A stretch of 64,000 bases of DNA from the IMG/VR virus record IMGVR_UViG_3300034358_000008, positions 62,001 to 126,000 of that record, one strand, 5' to 3'. The DNA is from a virus. Position 1 is the first letter of the stretch, and each line of letters begins with the position of its first letter. Below the pieces are notes generated by a model that was not told where the DNA came from, made no database searches, and worked only from the letters and a program-made list of their open reading frames with translations. Made by a program: the position numbers and the translations under genes. Below, in pieces: positions 7,732-28,394 of this stretch.

Positions 7732-7993
7732 TATGGCAGAACTGATCCCGAAGCTGAGGATCTCTATCGCTAACCTTTCATGGAGTCCAGTGGTAACTGG
7801 CGGTGAACGTAAAGAGTGGCGGATTGGAATGCCTCGTCTTATGGACTGTTCGGAGATGTTCATGATTGTCGCACACCTAGGTCTTGCACCCGGCAGGTTT
7901 GCTTTTAAACCTACTGAAAAAGGTGAGTCTCATAACCTACACATTTACTCGGAACCAGCTAATGGCAAAGAAACTATCCAAGGGGAAGCGTAA
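7715..7993 (+). CDS. Hypothetical protein, 92 aa
   Basis: GTG 7715 has a strong GGAGGAGG upstream. Overlaps both neighbours. Begins MSITADMAELIPKLRISIANL. No family recognised. Confidence 0.6.
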   Translation: MSITADMAELIPKLRISIANLSWSPVVTGGERKEWRIGMPRLMDCSEMFMIVAHLGLAPGRFAFKPTEKGESHNLHIYSEPANGKETIQGEA

Positions 7994-8129
7994 GCACCTT
8001 ATTTCCTTGGTAAAGGAAAATATTCGTGCTGAGCGGGTTTTAAGGAATGCCATGATTGATGCTCGCCGCATCGTGCATGAGAACTTCCAGTTACGTCAGA
8101 ATCGCGCTTACATGTCTATCTACTGTTAA
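7962..8129 (+). CDS. Small basic protein with N-terminal SKGK motif, 55 aa
   Basis: Begins MAKKLSKGKRKHLISLVKEN. The SKGK-x-[RK]-[HFY]-L string is also found at the start of four proteins encoded at 25647, 26608, 26855 and 27370. The rest is Arg-rich and helical. It overlaps the previous gene and ends the operon before a strong terminator. Function unknown; the shared N-terminus suggests a common interaction or targeting signal. Confidence 0.65.
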   Translation: MAKKLSKGKRKHLISLVKENIRAERVLRNAMIDARRIVHENFQLRQNRAYMSIYC

Positions 8130-23818: not shown

Positions 23819-24634
23819 ATGAGTTGTTGCAACCCTAGAGGAGTCCCAGATTCAGACATTCCGTTTGAACATCTAGGATGTCCTTGTGACACTTGGTCTC
23901 ACCTGAAAGATATGTTCGTCTATTTAAAAGATGAACGTGCTGGTGGAGTACCATGCAAACCTGAACAATTCAAAGTTCAGTGGACCGGTATCGATGCAAT
24001 GACTTATATGTTCGTTGTGACCGATAACATTACTGGCGAGATAATCGAATACAGCGTGACTAAGGAATTCACCAAGGAATCTCCTGAGCAAGCGTTTGAG
24101 CGCGATTGGCGCTTCAGAGAACTCGTGTATAACCGTGGCGTTAATCGTGCCATGGAGGACCTCCTAGAGGCCATGGAAGAAACGAATACGACTACATTGT
24201 ACAAGCTGTCCCGTGTACCAATGAAGTCACATGTAATTCACAAACCAATACAAGAAGATCTGGGGGTTATCGTATTCCAAACCGATTACCTACCAACATT
24301 CCGTCATGCTGAACCGATGACGAAAGATCAATGGAATGATTTCTATAGCGACATGCCTATCCAACTCCCCGATATCGTTTCGAAAGTGGCCTATGGTACG
24401 GATGTACTGTTGAAGCGCTTCCGTAAGATCGGGGTTAAGTTCCTTCGCATCGAACACGAAGAACTAGAAGATCTGAAACGGTTCACGATTGTAGGGGTAG
24501 CCTACCGTGACCACTCCACTGATACTGAGGTACGCATCCGCTATCAGGAGATGGATTTGGATAACCCAATCCTTCGCGCATACCACACGTACTTTACTAC
24601 GAAAGGACCACAGAATGGCTTTTTCAATTGCTGA
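23819..24634 (+). CDS. Hypothetical protein, 271 aa
   Basis: ATG 23819 has GAGGT eight bases upstream. The N-terminus is Cys-rich (MSCCNPRGVPD...GCPCD), possibly a zinc site. The rest is alpha/beta with several acidic helices. Overlaps the next gene by 20 bases. Function unknown. Confidence 0.7.
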   Translation: MSCCNPRGVPDSDIPFEHLGCPCDTWSHLKDMFVYLKDERAGGVPCKPEQFKVQWTGIDAMTYMFVVTDNITGEIIEYSVTKEFTKESPEQAFERDWRFRELVYNRGVNRAMEDLLEAMEETNTTTLYKLSRVPMKSHVIHKPIQEDLGVIVFQTDYLPTFRHAEPMTKDQWNDFYSDMPIQLPDIVSKVAYGTDVLLKRFRKIGVKFLRIEHEELEDLKRFTIVGVAYRDHSTDTEVRIRYQEMDLDNPILRAYHTYFTTKGPQNGFFNC

Positions 24635-25070: not shown

Positions 25071-25385
25071 ATGAAGGTAGGTCAGAATGTAAAAGATAAA
25101 TCTTACCTAGGGTATCGAGAAGGCCTTCTGTATGGACACGATATGGTTATCCACCATTTGATTTCTAGTCGTAAGTGCGCCTTACATTACCGTGATAAAC
25201 GTGCAGTTGAGTGCGGTCCTTATATCGGTGAGTCATTCCGGGAAGCCGATCGTGCAAACGGGTTGTCTAAATTCGTCCGTGAGAGTAATACGTGTAGCGA
25301 TGTCGAACTCAGATATGTATCCGATGCTAAAGCTAATGCTCATACACGTGGCAGACATGAACTAATAGACCTAGGTAGGAATTAA
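25071..25385 (+). CDS. Arg/His-rich hypothetical protein, 104 aa
   Basis: GAGG is five bases before ATG 25071. Leads an operon of small basic proteins. The end contains ANAHTRGRHELIDLG, resembling the RGRHE string in the last operon protein (27941). Function unknown. Confidence 0.65.
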   Translation: MKVGQNVKDKSYLGYREGLLYGHDMVIHHLISSRKCALHYRDKRAVECGPYIGESFREADRANGLSKFVRESNTCSDVELRYVSDAKANAHTRGRHELIDLGRN

Positions 25386-25386
25386 C

Positions 25387-25650
25387 ATGGTCGAAAAGAT
25401 CAGACTCTACATGGGTGTGCGTAGTGGCGTTATCTGGTACAGCGATAGTGAGCAACGTAAAAACGGTGGGTCACGGGGACTAGATAAAGTCTACGGATGG
25501 CGTGGACTTGAACACGCAAATCGTGAAACTGCATCAGACGACTACTACGTTAACGCTAGTAGACGAGAACGATTTTACGAGGGAGTTGATCAAAATCAAG
25601 CTCGACGAAATGGCCCCCATCGCGATAGACAGGAATGTGAATTCTCATGA
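25387..25650 (+). CDS. Arg-rich hypothetical protein, 87 aa
   Basis: AGGAATTAAC before the ATG. Strongly Arg/Asn/Asp rich in the second half (NASRRERFYEGVDQNQARR), probably flexible. Overlaps the next start by ATGA. Function unknown. Confidence 0.6.
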   Translation: MVEKIRLYMGVRSGVIWYSDSEQRKNGGSRGLDKVYGWRGLEHANRETASDDYYVNASRRERFYEGVDQNQARRNGPHRDRQECEFS

Positions 25651-25850
25651 TTAGTAAAGGTAAATTCCGACATCTGCGTGAGTTGTATGGTTACAATGAT
25701 TTCGTGATGTATAAAGATCTTAAGACTGGTTTCTCCACAGGTTATCATCGTGGGAAGGTCTATCACAACATGTATCCGATTAGCGGTGGTGGTCCAGCAT
25801 TCGACTGCACCGGTGTAAACGTAACTCTTAATTATCGAGTAGAGGTGTAA
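25647..25850 (+). CDS. SKGK-motif protein, 67 aa
   Basis: Opens MISKGKFRHLRELYGYND. The SKGK-x-[RK]-[HFY]-L start is shared with the proteins at 7962, 26608, 26855 and 27370, while the rest differs. The LYGxxD string after the motif recurs in the 27370 protein. Function unknown. Confidence 0.65.
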   Translation: MISKGKFRHLRELYGYNDFVMYKDLKTGFSTGYHRGKVYHNMYPISGGGPAFDCTGVNVTLNYRVEV

Positions 25851-25851
25851 C

Positions 25852-26067
25852 ATGGCTAAGCGTAATAACTTCAAACGTATCCGTAAGATTGCTGACATCA
25901 CTGAACACAACCGCAAGTATGCTTTGCTTCAGGCTGAACAGAATAGTCCTGAAGCTCTGGAACATAAGGTCAGTGAGTTACATGGTGCAATGCGTATCCT
26001 TCCAGCTGAGTCTCCACCAAAACAACCTGCACCTTCGCTGGGTGAACTCTTCAGCTTCTGCAAGTAA
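25852..26067 (+). CDS. Basic hypothetical protein, 71 aa
   Basis: GAGGTGTAAC upstream. Basic N-terminus (MAKRNNFKRIRKI) and a Pro-rich end finishing SLGELFSFCK, somewhat like TLGELLRES in the 3632 protein. Function unknown. Confidence 0.6.
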   Translation: MAKRNNFKRIRKIADITEHNRKYALLQAEQNSPEALEHKVSELHGAMRILPAESPPKQPAPSLGELFSFCK

Positions 26068-26077
26068 GGATTGAACC

Positions 26078-26266
26078 ATGTTCTGGATAATCTTGGGTAT
26101 CATTTGTCTGACATGCGGTATCCTTCTCGCAACGAGTACGTTTGTATTAAGTAGTTCGAATAACAACTTCAGTACGAAAGATCGGATCGAACTGTATACC
26201 CTTTCGCTGCTGCTTTATGTCGGGGGCATCTATGGCATCATCAGTAACGTCTGTCCGGGGACTTAA
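26078..26266 (+). CDS. Two-helix membrane protein, 62 aa
   Basis: AGGATTGAACC upstream. Hydrophobic segments at about residues 2-25 and 39-58, joined by a short polar loop. Overlaps the next gene by 35 bases. Function unknown. Confidence 0.6.
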   Translation: MFWIILGIICLTCGILLATSTFVLSSSNNNFSTKDRIELYTLSLLLYVGGIYGIISNVCPGT

Positions 26267-26615
26267 CAAAGGGAATAGACGGTATAAGAACCGTTGCTAT
26301 GAGCAACCGCGTGTTGCCTCTAACGGCATGGGTTGTGAGTGGACACATAACTACTTCCGTGATGAATGGACCTCGCGATTAGATCCACCCGATTCCTCTC
26401 GACGTACTGAAGCTGATGGCCATGAGGAAACTCCTGAGGCTCACCGGACCGGAGTGGATTTCTGGGGTAGGGCAGGTCTACGTGATGGTCAGGGTGCCTG
26501 TCTATTCATAGGTGCGTTTGAGGTTAGCGCTATACGCGATAACGATTGGCACCGTAAACGTTCTGAAGATTGCATTAACCCACCTGACGATGATGAGGAT
26601 TGGATAGATGATTAG
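26232..26615 (+). CDS. Arg/Asp-rich hypothetical protein, 127 aa
   Basis: GGGGG lies about five bases before ATG 26232; ATG 26217 is possible. Very rich in Arg, Asp, Trp and Cys, with IRDNDWHRKRSEDC near the end resembling ARDNQCQRGRHE of the 27941 protein. The C-terminus is a string of acidic residues. Function unknown. Confidence 0.55.
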   Translation: MASSVTSVRGLNKGNRRYKNRCYEQPRVASNGMGCEWTHNYFRDEWTSRLDPPDSSRRTEADGHEETPEAHRTGVDFWGRAGLRDGQGACLFIGAFEVSAIRDNDWHRKRSEDCINPPDDDEDWIDD

Positions 26616-26877
26616 CAAAGGTAAGCGTAGGTTTCTGGTTCGACTTAACCTCCTGACGGTGTTGTGCGCTCAGCACCGGAAAGATGGTCAGATCGATTTA
26701 TTTGGTTGGGCTAAGTTGGCAGCTTTGAAACCTCGGTTGCGCTATCGGACTACTACCCCTAGAAAACCTTGGGTAATGCCAACGCTGGCTACACCAGAAA
26801 CGCATGCAAAACTCAGAGAGATCCAGAACAACATAATGGCGAGGTACCGATCTAATGTCGAAAATATCCAAGGGTAA
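26608..26877 (+). CDS. SKGK-motif protein, 89 aa
   Basis: Opens MISKGKRRFLVRLNLL, the second SKGK member in this operon. The remainder is basic and helical. Overlaps both neighbours. Function unknown. Confidence 0.65.
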   Translation: MISKGKRRFLVRLNLLTVLCAQHRKDGQIDLFGWAKLAALKPRLRYRTTTPRKPWVMPTLATPETHAKLREIQNNIMARYRSNVENIQG

Positions 26878-27187
26878 GCGACGCTATCTATTACGGATGT
26901 ATCGTAGTTGGGTAGAGCTTCGAAGGCTCCGTGAGATATTCGGTCACCCTATTCTCAATCATGAATTTTTGAGTATCATGAATAAACGCTGGGTCGATTT
27001 AATGAGTCAGTGGCGCATGAATAGTCAAAAGCTCCTTGATGGTCTGGGTGCACCGGAGTCGTATATGGTGGCTACTCTACCAATGCGTCGTCAACGTGTT
27101 ATCGAAATAAACAAGAGCACTGGGTTACCACGCGGTGGATTACCCATGGTTACGTTGTTCACCGAGAAAGGACCAGTCAATGACTAA
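26855..27187 (+). CDS. SKGK-motif protein, 110 aa
   Basis: Opens MSKISKGKRRYLLRMYRSW. Basic helical N-terminal half; later sequence unrelated to the other members. GAGGT lies about nine bases upstream. Function unknown. Confidence 0.65.
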   Translation: MSKISKGKRRYLLRMYRSWVELRRLREIFGHPILNHEFLSIMNKRWVDLMSQWRMNSQKLLDGLGAPESYMVATLPMRRQRVIEINKSTGLPRGGLPMVTLFTEKGPVND

Positions 27188-27392
27188 TCTTCCAGCAGTT
27201 ATCCCACCATCATTTCACATACCCCTGGTATCGCCATATGGATCGACTGCACAAATGGTCCGTAATACCATGGCTAGGGTGTATGCTGGTATTATGTTAA
27301 TGGGTGTGACTCCAGGGGTAGCTCCAGAAGACCTTCCAAAGCATCGTAAGCTCATTGAGGACGTTCTGCATGTCACGAGTAAGCAAGGGTAA
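27180..27392 (+). CDS. Hypothetical protein, 70 aa
   Basis: AAAGGA precedes ATG 27180 by eight bases. Pro-rich start (LPAVIPPSFHIPLVSP), then a moderately hydrophobic helix (MARVYAGIMLMGVTPGVA). Overlaps both neighbours. Function unknown. Confidence 0.6.
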   Translation: MTNLPAVIPPSFHIPLVSPYGSTAQMVRNTMARVYAGIMLMGVTPGVAPEDLPKHRKLIEDVLHVTSKQG

Positions 27393-27960
27393 GATCAAGC
27401 ACCTATGGGCATTGTACGGCGTTTGGGATATTGTTAGTCACCATCGGTTGATGGATGAATATACTCAATTCATTGCCACGGCAAAGCGATGGGAAGCGCG
27501 GTTGCATGACCCTAAGGTGGTTTCTCGGATATCGCGGTTCAGGGATGCAGTGGATCAACGTCTGGTTGAACCAATGGTTCAACAGATCGCTACCAAAGGT
27601 TACTACGATGGTTGCCGTAAGTTGGATAGTGAGTTTGATTTAGAAGTGTTCATTGATATCAAACGGATGGAAAACCTAACGCACCTGACCTATTCCCGTG
27701 GGAAGCATCACCATCATTCCCTGAAAGATAAAGTTATTACTTACGACATAAAGCCCGATATCCTAGAGGCGATGTCAAAACCAGTCATACGTAAGTCAAC
27801 TATGTCTGGTGCGATTTATGCAGAAGGTAGCCTTGACCGTATAGCGCATCTCGACATTGCCGACACCTACCCTAAGACAATTACCGTGACCGATGAAGAA
27901 TGGCTTGAACGGGAGTTGTGGGTTATTCACGGGAGATGTGATGAGACGTCCTCAACGTAA
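27370..27960 (+). CDS. SKGK-motif protein, 196 aa
   Basis: GAGGA lies eight bases before ATG 27370. Opens MSRVSKGKIKHLWALYGVWD, the largest SKGK member. A His run (GKHHHHSL) sits near residue 115. The remainder is alpha/beta with an acidic C-terminus. The size suggests a folded domain behind the shared N-terminus. Function unknown. Confidence 0.65.
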   Translation: MSRVSKGKIKHLWALYGVWDIVSHHRLMDEYTQFIATAKRWEARLHDPKVVSRISRFRDAVDQRLVEPMVQQIATKGYYDGCRKLDSEFDLEVFIDIKRMENLTHLTYSRGKHHHHSLKDKVITYDIKPDILEAMSKPVIRKSTMSGAIYAEGSLDRIAHLDIADTYPKTITVTDEEWLERELWVIHGRCDETSST

Positions 27961-28186
27961 AGACCTCTACTATGGTTTCAGGAGTCAGGACTATGCGATG
28001 AGACCTGAATATTTTTACGGTCGTCAGTTAAGGACCAGTAAACCTGAACGTGATTGTCAATACGATCTTGAACGCAATGACGTGTGTTACGATGAGGGAG
28101 ATGGACCTAGGCATTGGATGTCTTTAACCGTTGCTCGTGACAACCAGTGTCAGCGTGGTAGGCATGAAAACTTCTATGCTCCATAA
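27941..28186 (+). CDS. Arg/Tyr-rich hypothetical protein, 81 aa
   Basis: GGGAG precedes ATG 27941 by five bases. Rich in Arg, Tyr, Asp with a tail ARDNQCQRGRHENFY, similar to strings in the 25071 and 26232 products. Last gene of the operon. Function unknown. Confidence 0.6.
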   Translation: MRRPQRKDLYYGFRSQDYAMRPEYFYGRQLRTSKPERDCQYDLERNDVCYDEGDGPRHWMSLTVARDNQCQRGRHENFYAP

Positions 28187-28187
28187 A

Positions 28188-28204
28188 ATGCGCGCCCGGC
28201 GCAT
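28188..28204 (+). terminator. Short GC-rich hairpin after the operon
   Basis: ATGCGC/GCGCAT arms with a five-base loop, two bases after the stop codon. It lacks an adjacent T-run, so terminator function is uncertain. Confidence 0.45.
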
Positions 28205-28218
28205 AAGTAATTCTAGGT

Positions 28219-28273
28219 AAAGCAATTTACATCGATAAATTAGTTTATCTAAAGAGCTTTTGTAATTTGCTTT
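28219..28273. repeat. Nested AT-rich inverted repeats
   Basis: Outer arms AAAGCAATTTAC (28219-28230) and GTAATTTGCTTT (28262-28273) pair with one mismatch. Inside is a perfect GATAAA/TTTATC hairpin (28234-28249). It lies in the 208-bp gap between operons, upstream of a promoter-like box. Could be a protein-binding site or a structured RNA. Confidence 0.55.
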
Positions 28274-28300
28274 TTAGATAAATTACTTAGATATAAATAG

Positions 28301-28308
28301 TATATTAT
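28301..28308 (+). promoter_or_regulatory. Promoter-like box TATATTAT
   Basis: A near match to TATATTAC, preceded by AGATATAAATAG. It is followed by a G/C-rich stem (about 28310-28332) and the 28395 gene. Weaker match than the other boxes. Confidence 0.5.
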
Positions 28309-28394
28309 GAGAGGGGGCCTTGGGGGCCCTCGAATAATATTCCTTATTCTTAGTATAGCAAGAGCTATACGCATTATGCCCTATGGGAGTTAAC

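Follow-up and report, generated by a model that had tools for sequence, protein, structure and literature searches.

A short N-terminal SKGK module on otherwise different small proteins in one branch of nucleus-forming phages

What is the role of a short N-terminus shared by small proteins that differ afterwards? The question is raised by a 64,000-nucleotide stretch of virus DNA (the window), comprising bases 62,001-126,000 of the IMG/VR record IMGVR_UViG_3300034358_000008, which totals 324,912 bases. An earlier note on this DNA reported an SKGK motif at the start of five small proteins, named here by the first base of their genes. Four (25647, 26608, 26855 and 27370) are encoded in an operon at 25071-28186, the fifth (7962) at a separate locus. 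All five N-termini read as reported. The motif was present in each, while the shared part covers about 12 residues and not the 8 initially described. The refined consensus is [ILVA]-[ST]-K-G-K-x-x-[HYFNW]-L-x-x-[LMV]-[YVF].

A six-frame scan of the entire record for SKGK within 12 residues of the start of plausible genes yielded only these five genes. One other long protein of 386 residues contains an internal SKGK at residue 218. SKGK at residues 3-6 was observed five times against 0.018 expected from the phage's own composition (about 450 proteins), a chance estimate computed post hoc, after the motif had been seen. Because the motif was chosen after the fact, its conservation across other genomes is the better evidence. 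A profile of the module identified 27 members in eight related records, a small set, with the motif at residues 2-6 in every member. These records are 201phi2-1, Viktualia, Phabio, PhiPA3 and four metagenomic records, among them the window's own. No match was obtained in the 17 other records, including phiKZ, Noxifer and FLC9. The genomes carry one to five members each. 201phi2-1 encodes gp24, gp25, gp52 and gp101, Viktualia CDS0210, CDS0211, CDS0241 and CDS0296. Phabio has one member, as does PhiPA3. The latter is an unannotated gene of 61 residues (MASRISKGKRRYL...) near 108,243 (~108243-108428), between gp116 and gp117. The IMG/VR contig 3300041411_000080 carries the same four operon genes in unchanged order, each of them with the motif, and two partial contigs hold four members apiece. 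In the window's genome the profile matches five places only; it recognises the N-terminal module of all five members with E values of 1e-8 to 1e-13, these five having helped to build it.

A DNA pattern of the motif matched 14 times in eight phage records (12 of the 14 being true N-termini) and its reversed control not at all. In 47 further records with a divergent DnaB, three matches, of which only that of PhiPA3 is a gene start, compared with eight for the reversed control. Two scans of all IMG/VR, for which the N-terminal motif was written in different codons, hit real genes in this clade only. Five matches to an MISKGK pattern outside the clade were dismissed as chance, their open reading frames (ORFs) measuring just 14-22 residues. 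The SKGK module is restricted to one branch of nucleus-forming phages. Comparison with unrelated phages and internal positions thus left the claim of a tag intact, the matches being N-terminal only and from one clade.

Synonymous codons vary among orthologues (AGT/AGC/TCC/TCT, AAA/AAG, GGT/GGG; both serine codon families are used). Since the codons vary while K-G-K and the downstream leucine stay, selection acts on the protein, and a shared DNA element was rejected as explanation. K-G-K and the leucine four residues on are invariant in an alignment of 22 N-termini. The members added later by the profile, up to 27, show slight departures, namely SKAK twice in Viktualia, SKGR in one contig and ITRGK in gp101. 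An aromatic residue is near-invariant. Module charge is +2 to +6 in all 27 members, that of the remainder -6 to +8. Within types, identity is 0.54-0.67 in the module versus 0.24-0.35 in the rest, an about twofold difference (79 of 81 pairs). Between the tails of types I, II, III-B and IV (Table 1) no homology could be detected (hhalign E > 0.1). Full-length homology between types was absent; the only detectably related tails are those of III-B and III-C, at their C-termini. Since the tails are unrelated between types, the sharing of the module across types is the decisive point. The picture of one N-terminal tag on otherwise differing proteins holds.

Table 1. Genes of the SKGK members in the window, their modules and the DnaB-derived segment.
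Feature	Position	Strand	Remarks
Type I member, 55 residues: SKGK module + RQNRAYMSIYC tail; separate locus	7962..8129	+	N-terminus MAKKLSKGKRKHLISLV; module profile E 1e-8
Type II member, 67 residues: SKGK module + short tail of predicted beta strands	25647..25850	+	N-terminus MISKGKFRHLRELYG; module profile E 6e-11
SKGK module of the 25647 protein, residues 2-14, ISKGKFRHLRELY	25650..25688	+	helix modelled at residues 4-14, low confidence
Type III-B member, 89 residues: SKGK module + tail	26608..26877	+	N-terminus MISKGKRRFLVRLNL; module profile E 1e-8
Type III-C member, 110 residues: SKGK module, tail end LFTEKGPVND	26855..27187	+	N-terminus MSKISKGKRRYLLRMYR; module profile E 1e-11
Type IV member, 196 residues: SKGK module + divergent-DnaB fragment + C-terminal extension	27370..27960	+	N-terminus MSRVSKGKIKHLWALYG; module profile E 5e-13
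SKGK module of the 27370 protein, residues 4-16, VSKGKIKHLWALY	27379..27417	+	helix modelled at residues 6-15, low confidence
DnaB-derived segment of the type IV protein (KGYYDG...DLE...RGKH)	27568..27756	+	copy of own helicase from about residue 412

Type I (7962; gp24 and gp25 of 201phi2-1) comprises proteins of 45-61 residues, basic for the most part, about half of which end in R-x-R-A-Y-M-x-x-Y-C. Orthologues of 7962 are 201phi2-1 gp25 (E 6e-5) and Viktualia CDS0211 (E 1e-4). The type II protein 25647 has an orthologue in contig 3300041411_000080; its relatives 201phi2-1 gp101 and Viktualia CDS0296 are both encoded upstream of chmA, the gene of the shell protein, at a distance of a few genes. 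Type III (26608 and 26855; gp52; Viktualia CDS0241) frequently terminates in F-x-E-K-G-P, with gp52 as the orthologue of 26855 (E 4e-4). B and C are a single gene of 126-128 residues, ending in F-x-E-K-G-P-L, in two related contigs, which suggests that the pair 26608 and 26855 arose by a split or a duplication. Type IV consists of 27370 and the Phabio SKGK protein. Searches of Pfam, PHROGs and NCBIfam gave nothing above noise for types I-III, and a scan of related loci with the 27370 protein as query had no match. No PADLOC model matched; PADLOC covers defence systems, and anti-defence proteins were not searched as such. The motif is unnamed in the phage literature searched. The module falls in no described family.

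The type IV tail is a copy of a C-terminal piece of the phage's own divergent DnaB helicase. Pfam family PF20307 (divDNAB) matches residues 69-129 of the 27370 protein at profile positions 265-328 of 356 (E 1.6e-14), and profile-profile comparison of the tail with DnaB (hhalign, E 1e-18) covers residues 67-129. By sequence, the tail is homologous to the C-terminal part of the DnaB ATPase domain. Retained are KGYYDG, the D-L-E strand and the arginine that opens R-G-K-H-R in the helicase; a complete ATPase core with Walker A and B was not found in the tail. By analogy with DnaB-family helicases, the final R-G-K-H-R stretch would be close to the subunit interface, the site of the arginine finger. 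The same phage encodes a full-length divergent DnaB helicase (genome 191214-192743, minus strand). Module and DnaB piece form a single protein in Phabio and the window's phage. The piece is a separate gene right after an SKGK gene in 201phi2-1 (gp53) and Viktualia (CDS0242).

In PhiPA3, the helicase gene (NC_028999.1 116186-119511) is broken by an endonuclease ORF after residue 389, resulting in gp134 and gp131. The latter (YP_009217211.1) is a DnaB C-terminal piece of 104 residues and spans the segment that also forms the type IV tail. Green fluorescent protein fusions of gp131 and gp134 were seen inside the phage nucleus (Enustun et al., PMC10643120). Provided that nothing beyond the annotated gp131 was fused, the DnaB piece is enough to place a protein in the nucleus without SKGK. 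By analogy with this nuclear piece, the tail rather than SKGK is the likelier localisation determinant of type IV. Homing or exon co-conversion was rejected as origin of the DnaB piece: some 20 residues separate the PhiPA3 break from the copied segment downstream of it, and the DNA is similar over only about 25 bases.

Other tails resemble core genes over shorter stretches. Residues 19-65 of the Phabio SKGK protein resemble the large subunit of ribonucleotide reductase, a short stretch linked via a stand-alone fragment ORF in the window's genome. This ORF of 67 residues is a large-subunit fragment (PHROG 84, E 7e-7) and lies outside the window at 25693-25896 of the record (L008:6693-6893). Weak similarity to a 672-residue virion protein (genome 273306-275324) was observed for the products of 26608-26877, 26855-27187 and 27180-27392, two of them at hhalign E values of 0.002-0.005. 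It was kept as a lead only: the stretches are short, their order is not strictly kept, and the III-C protein also aligns with a gp48-like protein. Judged from this resemblance, further tails may be pieces of core genes. A second short motif is shared at C-termini, LFTEKGPxN in type III (26855-27187) and YFTTKGPQNG in the gp48-like virion protein (23819-24634; hhalign E 0.006). Virion mass-spectrometry notes exist for the neighbours gp48 and gp49 and for none of the 201phi2-1 members.

The favoured, still tentative reading takes the module as a basic docking helix carried by an accessory family that evolves fast and has been duplicated in tandem, made up of clade-restricted small proteins with replaced tails. 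The core [ILV][ST]KGKxx(aromatic or N)Lxx(L)Y is predicted to form a short basic helix that Ser/Thr caps at its N-terminal end. Members that keep the module and differ elsewhere would have arisen as genes were duplicated in tandem and their tails replaced. The module would dock every member on the same partner, the surface of a phage or host protein, and each tail would supply the member's own job. In type IV, the DnaB-like tail may direct its protein towards the helicase or to the inside of the phage nucleus. The protein could then connect the partner of the module with the replication machinery, or modulate the helicase as a mimic of one subunit's interface. A bolder version is rather improbable: one N-terminal docking helix would mount parts of essential proteins of the phage itself (a segment of the helicase, a loop of the reductase and perhaps part of a virion protein) on the common partner, and the resulting modular adaptors or subunit mimics would regulate replication enzymes in the phage nucleus.

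Several points weigh against docking. Structure models had a mean pLDDT (predicted local distance difference test) of 58 for type II and 45 for type IV, and a helix over the module appeared in both at low confidence. With models this poor, the predicted helix and any interface are conjecture, and matches from a fold comparison would carry no meaning. A motif search of the PDB matched the module to no solved structure. Between the two closest genomes, the N-terminal conservation excess of SKGK genes was +0.08 to +0.40, that of other genes +0.10 (standard deviation 0.14). It is only modestly above the control genes, so that conservation within orthologues alone is not decisive.

The nearest rival to the docking helix is a contact with RNA, DNA or the ribosome. 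The KGK that opens the basic helix would bind phosphate backbones, and specificity would be adjusted by the tails. This rival has a lesser but appreciable chance. The module is uniformly cationic, and type I proteins are small and, for the most part, basic over their whole length. In phiKZ, a member of the same phage family, gp014 is reported to bind host ribosomes early (PMC10914614, PMC11849849). However, the module is unlike any solved nucleic-acid-binding protein, and the database searches with types I-III point to no such family. Tails are acidic in most type IV and some type II members, and the invariant leucine together with the near-invariant aromatic suggests a protein contact too. 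Unlikely, if not far behind, is a relic of gene birth: recombination would repeatedly have put a conserved 5' end with an overlapping start in front of parts of other phage genes and so created new genes, giving a common origin without a common function. Tails with pieces of core genes (DnaB, ribonucleotide reductase in Phabio, possibly the virion protein) are consistent with it, as are the overlaps of 4-32 bases between member genes and their neighbours. Yet conservation of the protein despite codon change at deep divergence argues for a maintained function. So does K-G-K-L, which is kept in types common to several phages and hence older than their split. In a further rival, the conservation of SKGK reflects gene overlap or translation start, with the upstream stop inside its codons and the sequence held by two reading frames or by an A/G-rich start region. 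The upstream TAA indeed lies inside GG-TAA-G in 26855 and 27370, and the glycine codon is nearly always GGT. But the overlap varies by gene and genome (4, 8, 17, 23 or 32 bases, none in Phabio) while SKGK is constant, 7962 has GGG, serine is encoded from both codon families, and the downstream Leu and Tyr are conserved as well. This constraint is largely excluded and has hardly any probability left.

One of the readings in the earlier note, a signal that would take proteins into or out of the phage nucleus across its shell, is very unlikely. In its favour, the module is N-terminal, basic and short, occurs on varied proteins, and has members near chmA in 201phi2-1 and Viktualia. Against it, just one to five proteins per genome carry the module. 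The phage's own shell protein ChmA, its DnaB and its tubulin PhuZ lack it, and phiKZ has no protein with it. Work on phiKZ found that import depends on a recognition surface and on no shared terminal signal (PMC11087766), and PhiPA3 gp131 is nuclear already without SKGK (PMC10643120). As a general rule, a shell import signal is therefore unsupported. Membrane docking, proposed in the same place, is weakly disfavoured; the predicted helix is short and cationic, and its hydrophobic moment does not stand out.

The span 25071-28186 also includes the non-member genes 25071, 25852, 26078, 26217, 27180 and 27893. The small basic protein of 25852-26067 has a C-terminal PSLG[EQ][LM]F that is conserved in relatives (201phi2-1 gp50, Viktualia, L024). 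Next to the span, an intergenic element at 28187-28385 (core 28287-28352) occurs in a single copy in the genome, a few kilobases upstream of phuZ. Its DNA identity ranges from 88% to 70% in six relatives; in phiKZ, 82% over 67 bases is found between PHIKZ037 and PHIKZ038. The element carries a long hairpin, ATATTATGAGAGGGGGCC..GGGCCCTCGAATAATAT, for which 98% of cells were paired in eight sequences and two pairs changed on both sides. It has no Rfam match and could be a promoter with a leader hairpin, an origin or a centromere-like site.

Most small genes in nucleus-forming phages are without known function, and a module on one to five proteins per genome offers a handle. One bait should reveal one partner for several uncharacterised proteins. 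Type IV further bears on cargo choice, that is, whether a short DnaB segment suffices for nucleus entry or helicase docking.

Among known systems, the PicA/Imp1 import pathway is the known route for selected proteins into the shell of nucleus-forming phages. It differs by recognising a protein surface and no terminal signal, and is found in phiKZ, which has no SKGK protein. The divergent DnaB helicase (PF20307, PHROG 3213) is related in that the type IV tail aligns with its C-terminal segment; the piece comprises about 60-90 residues only, without Walker motifs, and the helicase lacks the SKGK module. PhiPA3 gp131 is, like the type IV tail, a stand-alone DnaB C-terminal fragment of the same segment and reported as nuclear. 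In contrast to type IV, it belongs to the split helicase gene (76% identity to the DnaB of the window's phage) and is no SKGK-starting paralogue. The ribonucleotide reductase large subunit (PHROG 84; about residues 597-642 of E. coli NrdA) is represented by only a fragment in Phabio and not in the window's own SKGK proteins. Paralogous families of small genes with mosaic tails are already familiar from large phages. What makes the present variant unusual is a dedicated N-terminal helix that is fused to parts of enzymes of the phage itself.

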